Below are positions 11,048 through 30,007 of a stretch of 32,124 nucleotides of DNA, piece by piece. This stretch comes from a virus. Within the stretch, counting starts at the first letter, position 1. Every line of letters begins with the position of its first letter. The notes under the pieces were generated by a model. The model searched no databases and was not told where the DNA came from. It was given only the letters and a program-made list of their open reading frames with translations. Where the stretch lies: positions 1-32,124 of the IMG/VR virus record IMGVR_UViG_3300020165_000090. One strand, given 5' to 3'. The translations under genes were made by a program, and so were the position numbers.

Positions 11048-12034
11048 TTATAACTGGTCCAAAGACTCATACATTGCAGCTTGATCATCATCAGAACCAG
11101 GAATCAAACCTTCGTTAGAAAGCTCTCCATCGGTTTCCGCTTGAAAAACAAACTCTTCAACGTATTCAACAATACCTTCAACTACTCCGATGTGATTAGT
11201 TTTGACGTAGAAGAACAATGAACGAGATACAGGATAATCACCAGAAGCAATTGCATCAAACTCTGGTGCAACACTATCGATCAGAGAACCTTTAACACGG
11301 TCAGCATTATTCTGAAGGAACGAGAAACCAAAGATACCGACAGCATTTTGATCGTTAGACAGCTGATCAATAATCAATGAATCATTCTCACCAGATTCAA
11401 CATATACACCATCTTCACGAATTTCAATAGACTTATATGTTGCCTTATCAAAACCCATTGCCTTATATGCCGCATGTATTACCAGTTCTTCAAATGCGTC
11501 ACGTGTGCCAGAAGAAGTTGGTGGACCCAAAACATAGATTGGCGTATCGGGCAGGGATGCATCAATATCAGACCAACGCTCATATTGGTTTTCGGTCAGA
11601 TTACCATTAGCATCTGGAACTTGAGCAGATACAGCTACAGCAAGTTGTTCAAGGGTTACGTTAAAGTCTGGGCCGTTAATACTATTAGCCAAAACAATAC
11701 CATCATAGCCAACCATAAACTCAACAAAGTCTACACCGTTAGCAGCGCAAGCTTCAGCTTCAGAAGATTTCATTGCACGAGAAGCATTAGTAATATCAGG
11801 TGTGGAAAGACCAGTACCCTGACAGAACAGCTTCATGCCTCCACCAGAACCAGTAGACTCAATAATAGGTGTAGCAAAGTCAGTTGTTTGACCAAAGGAC
11901 TCAGCTACAGATGAAGCAAACGGGTAAACAGTAGAAGAGCCAACAATGTTGATTGTTGTAGCACGATCAGCAAAAGCCGGAACTGGTACCGAAATAGCAA
12001 TTGCTACAATAAAAGAAATAATAATGTTTTTCAT
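11048..12034 (-). CDS. pstS: Phosphate-binding periplasmic protein PstS
   Basis: Substrate-binding part of the high-affinity phosphate ABC transporter, carried by phages to improve phosphate supply. 328 residues from ATG 12034, chosen because it gives a clean signal peptide (MKNIIISFIVAIAISVPVPA with cleavage after AFA near 22) and has AGGA upstream; the longer reading crosses the hairpin. GSSTVYPF, STGSGGGMKLFCQG, NASRAMKSSE and GPPTSSGTRDAFEE are phosphate-contact segments of the family. No pstC/A/B in the window. It is in the tmRNA/late-promoter block. Confidence 0.92.
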   Translation of the reverse strand: MKNIIISFIVAIAISVPVPAFADRATTINIVGSSTVYPFASSVAESFGQTTDFATPIIESTGSGGGMKLFCQGTGLSTPDITNASRAMKSSEAEACAANGVDFVEFMVGYDGIVLANSINGPDFNVTLEQLAVAVSAQVPDANGNLTENQYERWSDIDASLPDTPIYVLGPPTSSGTRDAFEELVIHAAYKAMGFDKATYKSIEIREDGVYVESGENDSLIIDQLSNDQNAVGIFGFSFLQNNADRVKGSLIDSVAPEFDAIASGDYPVSRSLFFYVKTNHIGVVEGIVEYVEEFVFQAETDGELSNEGLIPGSDDDQAAMYESLDQL

Positions 12035-12062
12035 TTTTAATCCTGTACATAGAGATAGTTGA

Positions 12063-12082
12063 AGAGCCACCGAAGTGGCTCT
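12063..12082 (-). other. C(UUCG)G hairpin between the exported protein and pstS
   Basis: Eight-bp stem AGAGCCAC/GTGGCTCT closed by a TTCG loop, the very stable tetraloop known from T4 intercistronic regions. No U-tract on the minus strand, so more likely an RNA stability or processing element. Confidence 0.7.
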
Positions 12083-12092
12083 CTCTTTTACG

Positions 12093-12944
12093 TTACTGTG
12101 GAGTTACGTATTTGTCACCAGTAGAACGCTCAAGTACAACAGTACGAGAATTGGTTCGTGTCGTGCTCACAGTTGAACGCTTAACTGTACAAGGAAAGAC
12201 GCGACCATTAACGACTGCAACAGCTTCACCGGTTGGTGCAACAAACGTGTAGTCATATACGGATGGACACATAACGCGGGTGCGTGTTACACTTACACCA
12301 GAGTTAACAACTTGATCGGTAGTTGTTACATCTTCGGACGCAGCATAACGCAGCTTGTCTTCCCAACGCTTATCGCCTGGACTGGTAGAAGTACCGCCAA
12401 GAGAATCACGATCTTGGATCATCTGAGAAGTAAAGACATGTGTGGTACCGCGAGCCCAAGGGTGATTACCCTTTCGAACCAGCTTATAGGTTCCACCGCC
12501 GTTACCGTCAGAAGACTGCAGGCGCCACTTATCACCATAACCACCTTGCGCAATGCTAAAGCCTTTAAGTGCTTCAGGTGCAAAACCTTGGTAGGAAGAA
12601 GTGATACGGCCAGCATCTTGTGCAACAGTGCTAGTCACTGCACCCTGACGAGCAGACCACATACCTGTGCTGCCTGTAGAAGTCGTGGTGCGTGGATCAA
12701 TGTCAGTTACCATTGTCCAACCAGACTGACAATTACCATCGCCAATCACCTGACCAATAGCTTTGTTTGCTGCATGGTCAGTAAAGGTGGAACCTGGTGT
12801 ACCAGACAGTTTCCAACCAAAGCGTGCTTCTTCGGCACAGATAGTGTAGGTCTTGGTAGCAGGTGCCATGTTTTGTACATCAGCGAATGCAACAGAGCCA
12901 ATCATAGAAGCAGCAGTTGCAGCAGCAATCATAAGAATTTTCAT
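12093..12944 (-). CDS. Exported protein of unknown function, 283 aa
   Basis: MKILMIAAATAASMIGSVAFA is a clear Sec signal peptide, cleaved after residue 21. The mature protein has four cysteines (TICAEE, GNCQSG, VMCPSV, FPCTVK) that could form two disulfides in the periplasm, many Gly/Ser/Thr, and a C-terminal segment of alternating Thr/Val/Arg suggesting beta strands. No transmembrane helix beyond the signal and no family recognised. AGGATAT precedes the ATG. It directly follows the tmRNA and precedes pstS, so it could be expressed late and act in the host periplasm. Confidence 0.8.
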   Translation of the reverse strand: MKILMIAAATAASMIGSVAFADVQNMAPATKTYTICAEEARFGWKLSGTPGSTFTDHAANKAIGQVIGDGNCQSGWTMVTDIDPRTTTSTGSTGMWSARQGAVTSTVAQDAGRITSSYQGFAPEALKGFSIAQGGYGDKWRLQSSDGNGGGTYKLVRKGNHPWARGTTHVFTSQMIQDRDSLGGTSTSPGDKRWEDKLRYAASEDVTTTDQVVNSGVSVTRTRVMCPSVYDYTFVAPTGEAVAVVNGRVFPCTVKRSTVSTTRTNSRTVVLERSTGDKYVTPQ

Positions 12945-12975
12945 TATATATCCTATTTAATTTTGAAAGAAAGGT

Positions 12976-13003
12976 GATGGGATTCTGTTTCTAGGTTCCC
13001 ATC
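12976..13003 (-). terminator. Hairpin at the 3' end of the tmRNA coding piece
   Basis: Seven-bp stem GATGGGA/TCCCATC with a 14-base loop, followed by ACCTTTCTTTC on the minus strand. It may be a terminal helix of the tmRNA, a weak terminator, or both; the exported-protein gene begins about 30 bases further on. Confidence 0.5.
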
Positions 13004-13016
13004 CGACCCACAGAAC

Positions 13017-13061
13017 TTATGCTACGAGAGCGTAAGCCTTAGGAGCTACATAGTTGTTTGC
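13017..13061 (-). other. tmRNA tag reading frame ANNYVAPKAYALVA
   Basis: Resume codon GCA at 13061, 14 sense codons, stop TAA at 13019-13017. The tag starts Ala-Asn like most tmRNA tags and ends Tyr-Ala-Leu-Val-Ala, close to the YALAA ending read by ClpXP/ClpAP. TAAGA just before GCA mirrors the UAGUC before the E. coli resume codon. The apparent 91-aa frame covering this region is not a protein gene. Confidence 0.88.
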
Positions 13062-13145
13062 TCTTACTTTAGTTTGGTCCTTACGAGACCACCCGGTTTG
13101 TCTCCACTTGCTTTCCGCACCAGTCGATCCTAATTCACCCCCATT

Positions 13146-13235
13146 ATAATAACATCCAACTGTCCACAGTAACGAGCTATAACTCGGTAAGTTGATCAGA
13201 CGAACCACGGAATCGAACCGTGTGGATGTTATTAT
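13146..13235 (-). repeat. 13-bp inverted repeat enclosing the tmRNA spacer
   Basis: ATAATAACATCCA (13235-13223) and TGGATGTTATTAT (13158-13146) are perfect inverted copies. They extend the acceptor stem in the precursor and would hold the two pieces together until the 64-base loop is removed. Inside the loop CACGG-TTCGATT-CCGTG (13222-13206) looks like a second T-arm. Confidence 0.85.
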
Positions 13236-13302
13236 GGTGGAGGTGAGGGGATTTGCACCCCTGTCCTGCATACGTTCCGCTCGCTTCATCAACGAACATG
13301 AT

Positions 13303-13310
13303 TATTTATA
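13303..13310 (-). promoter_or_regulatory. T4-type late promoter before the tmRNA
   Basis: TATAAATA on the minus strand in non-coding DNA. Late transcripts start a few bases downstream, here near 13297, just before the acceptor piece. It could also serve the exported protein and pstS. Confidence 0.82.
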
Positions 13311-13336
13311 CTATAATAGACTATTAATGTACAATG

Positions 13337-13576
13337 CTATTTTTGCGTGGTAGCCTTGTTCAAAGCGATATTGAATTCAGTGCTAGCCATATTAGTGGCT
13401 TCAAACCGTTGGCGCAGACGTGCACCAATAAACTTAAGCAGAAGAATCTGGCCAGCAATTGCTAACTCAGACGGTGCATCATGCAGACCTGAATCCATTT
13501 CTTCTTTCAGGTCTGCATGGACTTCACGAAGAACTTCATGTAGGTCTTCATACGTCAGGTTCTTATTGCCCTCCAT
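13337..13576 (-). CDS. Small helical protein, 79 aa, unknown
   Basis: ATG at 13576 (MEGNKNLTYEDLHEVL) with CGGAGG upstream; the longer reading begins at a TTG without support. Acidic helices at 8-25, then a hydrophobic helix (ELAIAGQILLLKFIGARL) too charged at its end to be sure it is a membrane segment. It overlaps the end of the membrane protein above by 14 bases. Last gene before the tmRNA promoter; no clear terminator between. Confidence 0.7.
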   Translation of the reverse strand: MEGNKNLTYEDLHEVLREVHADLKEEMDSGLHDAPSELAIAGQILLLKFIGARLRQRFEATNMASTEFNIALNKATTQK

Positions 13577-13763
13577 TTTTTGCCTCCGGGTGTTCAATCA
13601 AATTAAGTTCTCCCGTAATTTCATCTGTGCTATAAGCAACATACTTATTTGCAACCAGTTTAGAAATAGTCAGGGTAGTACCACGATTGTGTCCCATACG
13701 CCAACCAACAATGGCAGAGATAGCCATCAGAGCTGCATAAGCAAGAATCATTTCAGTTGTCAT
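13563..13763 (-). CDS. Small N-anchored membrane protein, 66 aa
   Basis: MTTEMILAYAALMAISAIVGW is a single N-terminal membrane helix, followed by a short basic segment (RMGHNRGT) and a polar tail. This is the usual look of a phage inner-membrane protein; it could be a spanin-like or accessory protein, but nothing decides this. The start overlaps the dehydrogenase stop as TAATG. Confidence 0.72.
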   Translation of the reverse strand: MTTEMILAYAALMAISAIVGWRMGHNRGTTLTISKLVANKYVAYSTDEITGELNLIEHPEAKNGGQ

Positions 13764-14674
13764 TATTCAGTTACCTCTTCAAAATCAGGGTCTTCATTAC
13801 GGTGTGCCGTATTAACTGAACGAATTTCTTCGAACATCAGTGCACGTGCATCTACCTTGCGTGCAAAGTTAACAAGAGCAGAGGTGTCTTTTGGTAGACA
13901 GTGACCACCCCAACCACGCTTACCATCGTAACCAGGTACTTGCGAATGCGAGATACCAATACGAGGATCAAGTGCCAAGCCAAGACGAATAGCATTATAA
14001 TCCAGTTCTGTATCAAAATGCTTTGATGCACCTTCAACAACATCATATAACGTATTGAAGAAAGTAACACGGGTAGCAAGGAACATATTCTCAGCGTACT
14101 TGGCAATAGCTGCTTCAGTTACGCCCATGTGTGCCATATCGTTATATCCAAAGAGCTTCTGCCAACCTTCAGACACAGACTCTTCAATTGAGCCAATAAC
14201 CAGTTTGTCTTCTTTGATTGAGTCCTGGATTGCATGACGACCACGAAGGAACTCAGGTGAGAACGAGATGTTCATGGTGTTGTTCAGTTCCATGTGCATC
14301 TCAAGATCACGTGCAAAGCCAATATCGATAGTCGACTTGATCAGTACCATCTTGATACGGTTCTCATCCTTAAGAAACGGTGCAATCACCTTCTCAACAA
14401 TAGAGGTATCACACGAGCCATCTTCACCACGTGGCGTTGGTACACAGATAATTGCACAATGGATTTGATCCATGATTTCTTCAACGGTATCAGGTGCACC
14501 ATCCAGGTTTGGATCAACGAAGATAGTTTCGTATTCATCCATGTTACGAAGGTCAAGGTCTTCTTCACCACGTCGTGTTGCATCAGTATGACGGCCAGGA
14601 TCAAGCACTGCTGCCATACCCTGACCGACATAACCAGCACCGATAATTGCGATCTTTTGTTTAATGTAAGTCAT
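13763..14674 (-). CDS. Short nucleotide-sugar (UDP-glucose/GDP-mannose) dehydrogenase
   Basis: Oxidises a nucleotide sugar to the uronic acid with NAD. ATG at 14674 chosen for AGGACA upstream; 303 residues. Rossmann motif GAGYVG at 12-17, CVPTP, SPEFLRG, ENMFLATRVTFFN and the catalytic Cys259 in GWGGHCLPKD are all present. Complete enzymes have about 390-450 residues and a C-terminal nucleotide-binding domain; only 44 residues follow the Cys here, so that domain is missing or reduced. The substrate cannot be told. It sits next to kdsB with a primase-like gene between, suggesting a surface-sugar role. Confidence 0.87.
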   Translation of the reverse strand: MTYIKQKIAIIGAGYVGQGMAAVLDPGRHTDATRRGEEDLDLRNMDEYETIFVDPNLDGAPDTVEEIMDQIHCAIICVPTPRGEDGSCDTSIVEKVIAPFLKDENRIKMVLIKSTIDIGFARDLEMHMELNNTMNISFSPEFLRGRHAIQDSIKEDKLVIGSIEESVSEGWQKLFGYNDMAHMGVTEAAIAKYAENMFLATRVTFFNTLYDVVEGASKHFDTELDYNAIRLGLALDPRIGISHSQVPGYDGKRGWGGHCLPKDTSALVNFARKVDARALMFEEIRSVNTAHRNEDPDFEEVTE

Positions 14675-14678
14675 TGTC

Positions 14679-15599
14679 CTATCCATTTGCTAGAACGTAC
14701 GTCAATGCACGCTCGGCTTCAACATCAAGTGGACGGTTCTCATACCAGTTACCCGTCGCACGATCAAACTCTTTACACAGCTCAGCAATCTGGCTGGCTG
14801 TAATTGGGTACTTGCGGAAGATAGCATTGCCCGCAATAGAAATCATAATAGAATACATCTTAGAATACCAACCAGTATCCCGAATGCTCATGTATTCAGC
14901 AGCCAACTCTTTAGGGAAGAATGGACAATCGTAATAGCCATTCCATGTAATCATTGTGTTAGTCAACTCAGAACGCTTTTGTTGCATGTTGTATGCATCT
15001 ACTTGTTCTTGTAACTCAGGTGGTAACCATGAGTTCTTTGATGTGGCGCGCGGGTATTTATCCATCAATTCGGTTGGGTTCATGAATGGACCCACATGAG
15101 TGTAGATGAAGTTAAACGCATCAGGATACTGAGCAGGAATAAAGTACATACGGCTCAGGTCTTTGGTTTGCGCATCACCAATGTCAAGACACGTTTTATT
15201 AACCGCATGCCAGAAGTGTTTGATATCTTCTGACTTAACTGCATTGGATAGAGGGAAGACCAGTCGGAACTTAGGCTTCTCTTTGGTTGAGGAAGCAGTG
15301 GAGTAACACACATAATAATAAGGGATAGACTCGAGGAACTCTTCAGGAGAACCTTCATAGTCATCTACGTCAAGTGCACACCAGCTGCTCCACTCAATTA
15401 CGTTGGCGTTACGACGTGTTTCATTAATCTGATAGGTTGCAGGGCTGATCAATGGTACAGCATCAGGACCTTTCTTTACACCTGGCTTTTTGGCCAATGC
15501 ATAAAGCAGGTCCTCAAACTGTTGCCATTCATCAAAGCTCTGCGACTTATCGGTCTTGTTGTCGTAAACGCTTTTGAATAGGGTAAACTTAAATGTCAT
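14679..15599 (-). CDS. Primase-like protein (archaeo-eukaryotic primase/VirE-type N-domain)
   Basis: 306 residues from ATG 15599 (MTFKFTLFKS); an ATG at 15608 is also possible. WCALDVDDYEG near 75 has the DxD metal motif, and STASSTKEKPKFRLVFPL near 105 followed by TKDLSRMYFIPAQYP near 148 matches the pattern of plasmid/phage prim-pol domains. The histidines usual in this second motif (THSH) are Ala and Ser here, so primase activity is doubtful. The C-terminal half is helical with CPFFPKELAAEY. It overlaps the kdsB stop by 11 bases and the dehydrogenase start nearby. Gene sure, activity uncertain. Confidence 0.7.
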   Translation of the reverse strand: MTFKFTLFKSVYDNKTDKSQSFDEWQQFEDLLYALAKKPGVKKGPDAVPLISPATYQINETRRNANVIEWSSWCALDVDDYEGSPEEFLESIPYYYVCYSTASSTKEKPKFRLVFPLSNAVKSEDIKHFWHAVNKTCLDIGDAQTKDLSRMYFIPAQYPDAFNFIYTHVGPFMNPTELMDKYPRATSKNSWLPPELQEQVDAYNMQQKRSELTNTMITWNGYYDCPFFPKELAAEYMSIRDTGWYSKMYSIMISIAGNAIFRKYPITASQIAELCKEFDRATGNWYENRPLDVEAERALTYVLANG

Positions 15600-16395
15600 A
15601 TTCACCATTCTTTAGTGCTTCTTCTACAGGAGCAACATCTTCCAGGTTATTTACTTCATTGTATAATACACCAGTATGAGGGACTTGTACACAGTTAATT
15701 TGCATACCTGCCTCCAGAAAACGTAGCTGCTCAAGACCTTCTTCTTGTTCAAGGTCAGTCTCAGCAATCAGCGAGTAAGACAGAAGCGCAGCAGGATTGT
15801 AAAGGTACGCACCTACATGATATTTGATTGGCGTTGAATAAACGTTCTCAATGTCTTTCATATGAGGAATTACTTCTTTAGAGAAATACAGTGCATTACC
15901 GGATGTATCAGTAACAACAGTTGTACCACCAACAACATCGCGCTTACGCTTCTCAACCAATACCTTTGCATCTTCATGGCTGAATTCAATATAAGGCGTG
16001 ATCATATCAAAGTCACGTGGTGCATACTCAAGTGCTTCCATCATCACTTCAACATAACGACGTGGCATCAAAGGGTTGTCACCTTGCCAATTGATCACAC
16101 AGTCGTATTGCTCAAGCCACTCATCACCATACTCATCACCAAGTGCTTCCCATGCTTCAGCAACACGCTCAGTACCATTACGACACTCAGGGGAAGTCAT
16201 GACAATATCACAAGGCAAAGACTGAACTGCCTCAGCAATACGTTCATCATCAGTAGCAACAACAACATCATAACCGGTCAGGGTTGCTTGCAATGCAGTC
16301 CAGAAAATCAAGGACTGACCATTCATTTGATGTAGCATCTTACCTGGAAAGCGGCTTGAGTTGTAACGAGCGGGAATGATAATAATAGGTTTCAT
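15589..16395 (-). CDS. kdsB: CMP-KDO synthetase (3-deoxy-manno-octulosonate cytidylyltransferase)
   Basis: Activates KDO as CMP-KDO for transfer onto lipid A or capsule. 268 residues. IIPARYNSSRFPGK at 6-19 is the CTP-binding motif; WQGDNPLM, the ALYFSKEVIPH segment, KYHVGAYLYN and DLEQEEGLEQLRFLEAG are typical of KdsB. A divergent member could use another acid sugar, but the E-x-E-x-L-E-Q-L-R run favours KDO. With kdsA at 18392 in the same window the KDO assignment is strengthened. Confidence 0.93.
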   Translation of the reverse strand: MKPIIIIPARYNSSRFPGKMLHQMNGQSLIFWTALQATLTGYDVVVATDDERIAEAVQSLPCDIVMTSPECRNGTERVAEAWEALGDEYGDEWLEQYDCVINWQGDNPLMPRRYVEVMMEALEYAPRDFDMITPYIEFSHEDAKVLVEKRKRDVVGGTTVVTDTSGNALYFSKEVIPHMKDIENVYSTPIKYHVGAYLYNPAALLSYSLIAETDLEQEEGLEQLRFLEAGMQINCVQVPHTGVLYNEVNNLEDVAPVEEALKNGEYDI

Positions 16396-18391: not shown

Positions 18392-19174
18392 TTATAGTAG
18401 TCCTTTTAGAATATTGATATTGTACATGATGTCACGGAATTGTGTCGAAGTTACGGAGTTGGGACCGTCAGATTGCGCTTTTGCTGGCTCAGGATGTGTC
18501 TCCAGGAATACCCCATCGACATAGCCCTGGGCCACTGCAGCAGATACTAATCCATCAACCAGATCACGGTTACCACCAGATGAAGTGCCATTGCCACCTG
18601 GAATCTGAACCGAGTGAGTTGCATCAAAGATCATCTTGATGTTAGGGTGCTTATCCTTAATCATCTGGAACTGAGTGAAGTCTACAACCAAACGATTGTA
18701 ACCAAAAGCGGTACCACGATATGTGATCCAAACGGTTTCATCATCACCAACCTTTGAAAGGATACCAGCTACATCATCTGGACCCATCCATTGTCCCATC
18801 TTAACGTTAATGTAGTTTGCATTCTCACGTGTTGCCAACAGCAGATCAGTCTGGCGAGAAAGTAAGGCAGGCACTTGCAGTACATCAATACGGTTATTGA
18901 TCAGCTCTGGCTGAAATGATTCATGTACATCAGTCAGAGTCTTAACACCATACTCTTTACCTTGTTCAGCCAAACTCTCGACAACAAACTCAAGACCACA
19001 GCCTCGTGCACCATCAATATTAGTACGGTTGGCTTTATCGAAAGAAGCTTTCAGAACCAGGTTGTTATGCAGACCATTGTCATATGCATCATTGTAAATG
19101 TATTCAAATGCTTTTTTGGTGTAACCTGGTTCCCATTGACATGTACCAGCGATAACAATAAAATCATTAGTCAT
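18392..19174 (-). CDS. kdsA: KDO-8-phosphate synthase
   Basis: Condenses arabinose-5-phosphate and phosphoenolpyruvate to KDO-8-phosphate. 260 residues (bacterial enzymes about 280). VLKASFDKANRT, DVHE, QVPALLSRQTDLL, NVKMGQWMGPDD, RGTAFGYNRLVVDF, FDATHSVQIPGG, SSGGNR and LETHPEPAKAQSDGPN are KdsA hallmarks, active-site residues included. The start overlaps the gp43 stop as TAATG. The pathway also needs kdsD and kdsC, not seen here, so it must rely on the host or on genes elsewhere. Confidence 0.95.
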   Translation of the reverse strand: MTNDFIVIAGTCQWEPGYTKKAFEYIYNDAYDNGLHNNLVLKASFDKANRTNIDGARGCGLEFVVESLAEQGKEYGVKTLTDVHESFQPELINNRIDVLQVPALLSRQTDLLLATRENANYINVKMGQWMGPDDVAGILSKVGDDETVWITYRGTAFGYNRLVVDFTQFQMIKDKHPNIKMIFDATHSVQIPGGNGTSSGGNRDLVDGLVSAAVAQGYVDGVFLETHPEPAKAQSDGPNSVTSTQFRDIMYNINILKGLL

Positions 19175-29353: not shown

Positions 29354-30007
29354 TTACTGAAAGTATTCCTCAAGATCAGAATCAAGACGGCGGATGTACT
29401 TACGAGTCTTGGACTCATATGATACATCTTTCTCATCCGTCACAGTTTCTTCTTTGTCAGATTTATGGAAGAGTTCACCTGATGAGTCGTAAGCGAATTC
29501 ATTCATCTTACGTTTCAGGTCGTCATAGTAAGCAACAGATACAGACTCGGCAATAGTACCTTTAAGGTTCTCGTCGACATGCACCATGTTATCACCTTGT
29601 GACTCATTCAGAACTGCACGCTTAATTTCAGCTTGCTTCTTTTCTTTAGCAATACGACGCAAGAAAGCATACGTACAGATTTGAGTAAAGTAACCAAAGG
29701 CGTTTGGCTTACCTGTTCGTGTTGAGGCATCAATCTTGTAGTTCTTGACAGCACGCAAACAGTTTTCAATTGCATCAGATACCATCTCGCTACGATAAGA
29801 GTAGTTCTTAAAGTTTCGTTGATGAGATGCACCATTACAGATTTTAATAAAGCACTCGGCAATGTAAGTAGGTACACGTAATTCGTCAGTAACGTTTTCT
29901 TTTGCTTCTTTTAGGGAGACAGCATAATCATAACAGGCTTGTGAAAACTTTACGTTATCCACATAATTTTCAGATAGCTTATCTTTAGGTGGCTTCGCAA
30001 AAAACAT
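29354..30007 (-). CDS. 55: Late-transcription sigma factor gp55
   Basis: Directs RNA polymerase to TATAAATA promoters. 217 residues (T4 185). The NFKNYSYRSEMVSDAIENCLRAV segment and KPNAFGYFTQICTYAFLRRIAKEKK match the gp55/sigma region 2 core. The end, LDSDLEEYF, is like the clamp-binding tail that lets gp45 activate late promoters. Two exact late promoters in this window (3206, 13303) are its likely targets. Confidence 0.94.
   Translation of the reverse strand: MFFAKPPKDKLSENYVDNVKFSQACYDYAVSLKEAKENVTDELRVPTYIAECFIKICNGASHQRNFKNYSYRSEMVSDAIENCLRAVKNYKIDASTRTGKPNAFGYFTQICTYAFLRRIAKEKKQAEIKRAVLNESQGDNMVHVDENLKGTIAESVSVAYYDDLKRKMNEFAYDSSGELFHKSDKEETVTDEKDVSYESKTRKYIRRLDSDLEEYFQ

Follow-up and report, generated by a model that had tools for sequence, protein, structure and literature searches.

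Permuted tmRNA genes have already been published in phages, with Melnitz and Mosig as examples, and two-piece predictions account for 53 of 133 phage tmRNA structures, 50 of them marine or aquatic (PMC9004378). For Melnitz, an early promoter and a glutamine riboswitch have been reported (PMC9004378). With regard to bacteria, PMC3985003 cites Keiler 2000 for the finding that the permuted tmRNA of Caulobacter functions, and names RNase P and tRNase Z as suggested processing enzymes for permuted tmRNAs. The original prediction for the DNA analysed here, which listed permuted genes in bacterial lineages and one-piece tmRNAs in phages as the known background, was incomplete in this respect. Because phage permuted tmRNAs had been published, the gene described below is a further case and not a first.

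The gene resides in a 32-kb virus record that is a contig fragment (32,124 nucleotides, hereafter the window). Recognised T4-like genes encode the gp43 polymerase, the gp44 and gp62 clamp loaders, the gp45 clamp and gp46/47, and UvsX, a DnaB-like helicase and the late sigma factor gp55 were also recognised, in agreement with the T4-like phage that had been proposed. A blastn comparison of 2.5 kb of the window with phage records gave no close match, and the sole match obtained with 25 kb was the recA-like gene of one Cronobacter phage (two records). Pfam DAHP-synthase-I family, cytidylyltransferase and UDP-glucose-dehydrogenase-type PHROG matches were also observed (18392-19174, 15589-16395 and 13763-14686, minus strand), which possibly represent kdsA, kdsB and a sugar-nucleotide enzyme, a small gene set for KDO or other cell-surface sugars.

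The window gene is a phage permuted (two-piece) tmRNA gene of the alphaproteobacterial type, and it is apparently intact. Two Rfam covariance models match the minus strand with scores that are far beyond chance and above the respective gathering scores of 47 and 50. The permuted model RF04321 (tmRNA_permuted) aligns over its full length (1-213) with 13297-13017 at 98.9 bits (E 2.4e-18), with the acceptor piece ahead of the coding piece, and RF01849 (alpha_tmRNA, model 1-355) aligns with 13356-12973 at 69.5 bits (E 3.3e-17) and includes the alpha-specific 3ʹ element (ACCU..AACAGAA). The claim of a permuted tmRNA gene is therefore borne out by both models, whereas the description of the gene as a ‘host-type’ ssrA holds at the level of class. 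Within 12900-13400, the Rfam search at E values up to 5 returned only tmRNA matches, and a riboswitch in the window gene was rejected as a candidate. The elements of the locus are as follows.

13303-13310, minus strand: putative T4-type late promoter TATAAATA, which ends 5 nt ahead of where the acceptor piece is predicted to begin.
About 13297-13235, minus strand: acceptor piece of 63 nt (RF04321 alignment; 65 nt identical in L055), composed of GGAC, the T-arm AGGGG-TGCAAAT-CCCCT, the acceptor strand CACCTCC with U70, the discriminator A and CCA.
13143-13234, minus strand: 92-nt spacer, expected to be excised (fold and pair probabilities).
13234-13223 with 13158-13147, minus strand: 12-bp rod closing the spacer, with TAAT next and then GGGGG.
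13206-13222, minus strand: canonical T-arm-like hairpin CACGG-TTCGATT-CCGTG in the spacer, stacked on the rod (pair probability 0.98-0.99).
12976-13142, minus strand: coding piece of about 167 nt with an approximate 3ʹ end (RF04321 and RF01849 alignments; near-identical in L055), composed of GGGGGTG (from 13142), GGATCGAC, the tag frame and a 3ʹ hairpin/pseudoknot.
13017-13061, minus strand: tag frame ANNYVAPKAYALVA with its stop codon (translation).
12976-13016, minus strand: potential pseudoknot at the 3ʹ end with the stems UUCUGU/ACAGAA and GAUGGGA/UCCCAUC, in agreement with the alpha consensus ACCUgGcAACAGAA (RF01849 alignment).
12093-12944, minus strand: 283-amino-acid protein with a signal-peptide-like N-terminus, downstream of the tmRNA.
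29354-30007, minus strand: gp55-like late sigma factor (phrog_234, E 6.5e-45).

All elements of the gene lie on the minus strand, which the original prediction had left unstated while giving coordinates accurate to a few bases. The two pieces carry the alanine acceptor features G3-U70, A73 and CCA (GGGGGTG with CACCTCC-ACCA), of which G3-U70 is the alanine identity pair, and GGAUCGAC is present. The acceptor halves had been expected to pair across the swapped order, and they do so in the predicted precursor with a probability of 1.0. The P2 helix between the pieces includes several non-standard pairs in the covariance model alignment, and its duplex energy is no better than that of shuffled sequences.

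Pattern scans of IMG/VR yielded at least 305 distinct phage permuted tmRNA genes after filtering; these scans preset the range of spacer lengths, and comparisons of spacer length are thus indicative only. Two loci first taken as tmRNAs (L018 and L086) were dropped, the latter resembling a run of ordinary tRNA genes. ARAGORN did not call the permuted tmRNA gene in the window and, among the matches listed, found 243 and missed 62 of 305 comparable phage genes. Surveys built on this program therefore undercount phage permuted tmRNAs.

We consider it likely that a permuted ssrA of alphaproteobacterial type is carried here by a lytic T4-like phage and that its two-piece tmRNA, made late, rescues ribosomes and tags their products. 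Transcription by way of gp55 would begin with the first base of the acceptor piece, whose 5ʹ end may then need no processing. A long helix formed by the acceptor stem and the 12-bp rod would keep both halves together in the precursor while host tRNA-processing nucleases excise the spacer; the products would be an acceptor RNA of 63 nt and a coding RNA of about 167 nt, joined by base pairing. With AlaRS, EF-Tu and SmpB supplied by the host, the two-piece tmRNA would then act in late infection, a stage at which message cleavage and ribosome load are expected to be high, and free ribosomes that have stalled on truncated messages. The peptide ANNYVAPKAYALVA would be added in the process, and its hydrophobic end would direct the product to host ClpXP-like proteases. 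SmpB is not among the proteins recognised in the present fragment.

The tag frame predicted originally is present at 13061-13017, with a resume alanine, a stop and a hydrophobic C-terminus. Tag ends of the LVA and LAA types are degradation signals. The modified YALVA end that had been pointed out is real, though rare (2 of about 267 tags among the matches listed), and a single GCA-to-GTA change separates it from the LAA end of a sister gene (L055) in another phage; we claim no special role for it. The sister tag, ANNYVAPKTYALAA, differs from that of the window by three synonymous changes together with A to T and V to A. These comparisons bear on the possibility that the RNA is made and folded but acts mainly as a decoy, competing with host tmRNA, or diluting it, for SmpB and ribosomes. 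A precedent is offered by the tag-less tmRNA-like RNA of phage DS6A, which inhibits host tmRNA when expressed in E. coli, as cited in PMC11915505. However, a decoy would have no need of a tag, whereas the tag frame, the resume region and the hydrophobicity of the tag end have all been kept here, with synonymous changes in the tag, and we therefore regard a decoy as unlikely.

Conservation beyond the tag was assessed with two further contigs. One of these (L122) carries an identical gene and is probably the same phage as the window. The sister gene L055 lies in a phage contig whose flanks are unlike those of the window, and yet its acceptor piece is identical over 65 nt, and its coding piece is identical over the first 75 nt and near-identical overall. 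The 3ʹ hairpin is identical as well; within the potential pseudoknot, the second stem is the same and the first has one pair fewer in L055. By contrast, the interiors of the two spacers (92 nt in the window, 100 nt in L055) cannot be aligned, and the closing rods have diverged through paired changes. The retention of both mature pieces while the spacer was replaced points to selection on both pieces and lends indirect support to spacer excision, as would be expected if the two mature RNAs were under selection and the segment between them were discarded.

The late promoter that the original prediction placed at the 5ʹ end can be evaluated in the same collection. Exact copies of TATAAATA number four in the window against 1.2 expected, and the motif alone is thus weak evidence. 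Among the matches listed, however, 81 of 301 phage permuted tmRNA genes carry the exact motif immediately ahead of the acceptor piece, in most cases at a distance of 61-72 nt from CACCTCC; the 55 other permutations of its letters give 4.2 on average. When only non-redundant upstream regions among these matches are counted, 62 of 237 carry it, and none of 23 bacterial alpha genes has it at this place. The position of the putative promoter is thus strongly conserved across relatives, and about a quarter of the phage genes look as though they are expressed late from the first tmRNA base. Because a gp55-like sigma factor is encoded in the window, a T4-type late promoter is a plausible reading, and the combination of TATAAATA directly upstream with a phage late sigma factor in the same contig would place the tmRNA among T4-type late genes. 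The 283-amino-acid protein encoded downstream, for which no PHROG, Pfam or phage match was found, is probably part of the tmRNA's putative late transcript. The second gene downstream of the tmRNA encodes a PstS-like phosphate-binding protein (11048-12070, minus strand; PF12849, E 7.4e-41), and such proteins are found in many marine T4-like phages.

A host ssrA copy gained by recombination might instead be transcribed as a functionless passenger, and the sporadic occurrence of permuted tmRNAs among relatives (3 of 28 gp44-related records) speaks for such an origin. Nevertheless, the mature pieces are identical or nearly so in two phages with wholly diverged spacers and flanks, the promoter keeps its position from phage to phage, and the bacterial leader hairpin is missing. 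We judge a passenger to be very improbable because the mature pieces are conserved. The degradation-signal type of the tag end would also suit the early recycling of host proteins by tagging. This role has been proposed (PMC9004378), but the late promoter does not fit it and there is very little likelihood that it applies here.

In the predicted fold of the precursor, the acceptor stem continues through the CCA region, which faces UGAU, into the rod as a single long helix. The CCA is thereby buried, and RNase P or Z may be able to act only after an additional cut. Among the matches listed, a helix of at least 7 bp closes 177 of 211 phage spacers of at least 51 nt, whereas about 6 are expected from shuffled sequences. 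The rod begins no more than two bases from CCA and ends a few bases ahead of GGGGG, which TGAT immediately precedes in 146 of 166 genes of standard geometry (among the matches listed). Several Watson-Crick pair types occur at most rod positions, and 86% of rod cells pair when all such spacers are considered, against 54% after partners had been exchanged at random between genes; on this comparison, the predicted rod is backed by compensatory changes. Most bacterial alpha genes, whose spacers are short, have no rod, and no betaproteobacterial gene exceeded the cut-off to contribute spacers to the comparison. Two alphaproteobacterial genomes (L628 and L629) do have a short rod with TGAT, and strict phage specificity was therefore rejected; the rod looks phage-enriched rather than exclusive. 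Natural variation of rod and spacer around fixed mature pieces offers a way to test how the precursor is cut.

Strict T-arms occur in eight phage spacers against 0.18 expected (among the matches listed). One spacer (L444, 4162-4238) contains a complete tRNA-Arg(TCT), identified by ARAGORN and enclosed by the rod. Five others (L008, L042, L043, L096 and L440) have a T-arm adjoining the 3ʹ strand of the rod, are cloverleaf-like where folded, and look like decayed tRNAs. ARAGORN found no tRNA in the window spacer. Its T-arm, the GUUCGUC and GAUCAAC strands and a D-like arm might be arranged as a permuted tRNA, but this is not claimed, as the connecting loop would be one base.

Other phage spacers consist of a short gene, in which a ribosome-binding site adjoins CCA and is followed by 22-34 codons for a hydrophobic protein, with a stop often within the TGAT ahead of GGGGG. 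Strict open reading frame criteria select 11 of 122 spacers of at least 80 nt (among the matches listed), compared with 0.3 in shuffled sequences and none on the opposite strand, and these frames probably encode single-span membrane microproteins. Spacers of this type were observed in L403 (2465-2588), L436, L418, L448, L432, L075 and L380, and further in L394, L476, L480, L481, L031/L089 and L117. Three genes (L095, L114 and L116) share a common spacer interior (e.g. TTTGCCCTGRGTGGCTCGG..CCGAATAACTGAAAA) with different tmRNA flanks, and interiors also recur in L005/L028/L103/L027 and in L017/L106, as if spacers had been exchanged between phages. The L116 spacer has no Rfam match.

We tentatively suggest, while giving it somewhat less than an even chance, that the permuted tmRNA of T4-like phages is a late composite locus whose rod-closed, rapidly exchanged spacer serves as a cargo site, the precursor yielding a rescue RNA and a second product. 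On an equally tentative footing, the cargo could be tRNA-like domains, such as the T-arm here and the tRNA-Arg of L444, or microprotein coding sequence. If such cargo is expressed, the precursor of the tmRNA would at the same time be a messenger RNA or a tRNA precursor.

A late promoter abutting the acceptor piece and a rod-closed, exchangeable spacer appear to be undescribed; no account of the promoter placement, the rod or the spacer cargo was found in the open-access literature searched, whose coverage is small. Bacterial alpha permuted tmRNAs (RF01849, Caulobacter type) share with the window gene the order of the pieces, the tRNA-like domain, GGAUCGAC and the 3ʹ ACCU..AACAGAA element. They differ in that their spacers are short, their acceptor piece is preceded by a leader hairpin and their tags are mostly of the ANDN type, and in lacking TATAAATA. 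The one-piece tmRNAs of phages such as mycobacteriophages are also phage-borne, but they have the standard gene order and belong to another lineage. The closest counterparts are Melnitz (OM43), Mosig EXVC030M (Pelagibacter), DSS3_MAL1 and RpAliso (Ruegeria), which like the window have a two-piece alpha-type tmRNA in a lytic phage. The permuted tmRNA of Mosig is annotated in its record, as is that of DSS3_MAL1, which was matched by blastn only. RpAliso (L640, 2895-3116) carries an unannotated permuted tmRNA (129.5 bits, tag ANENFAPVEMAVAA), to which RcXuper and MD18 have unannotated blastn matches. The Mosig spacer is rod-closed too (TAAACACATTA/TAATGTGTTTA), but neither Mosig nor RpAliso has TATAAATA at the 5ʹ end, and Melnitz is reported to have an early promoter and a riboswitch where the window has a late promoter and no riboswitch. 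Timing is thus not uniform among phages, and the window gene suggests ribosome rescue under phage late control in T4-like phages, which contrasts with the early-promoter idea in one detailed report.
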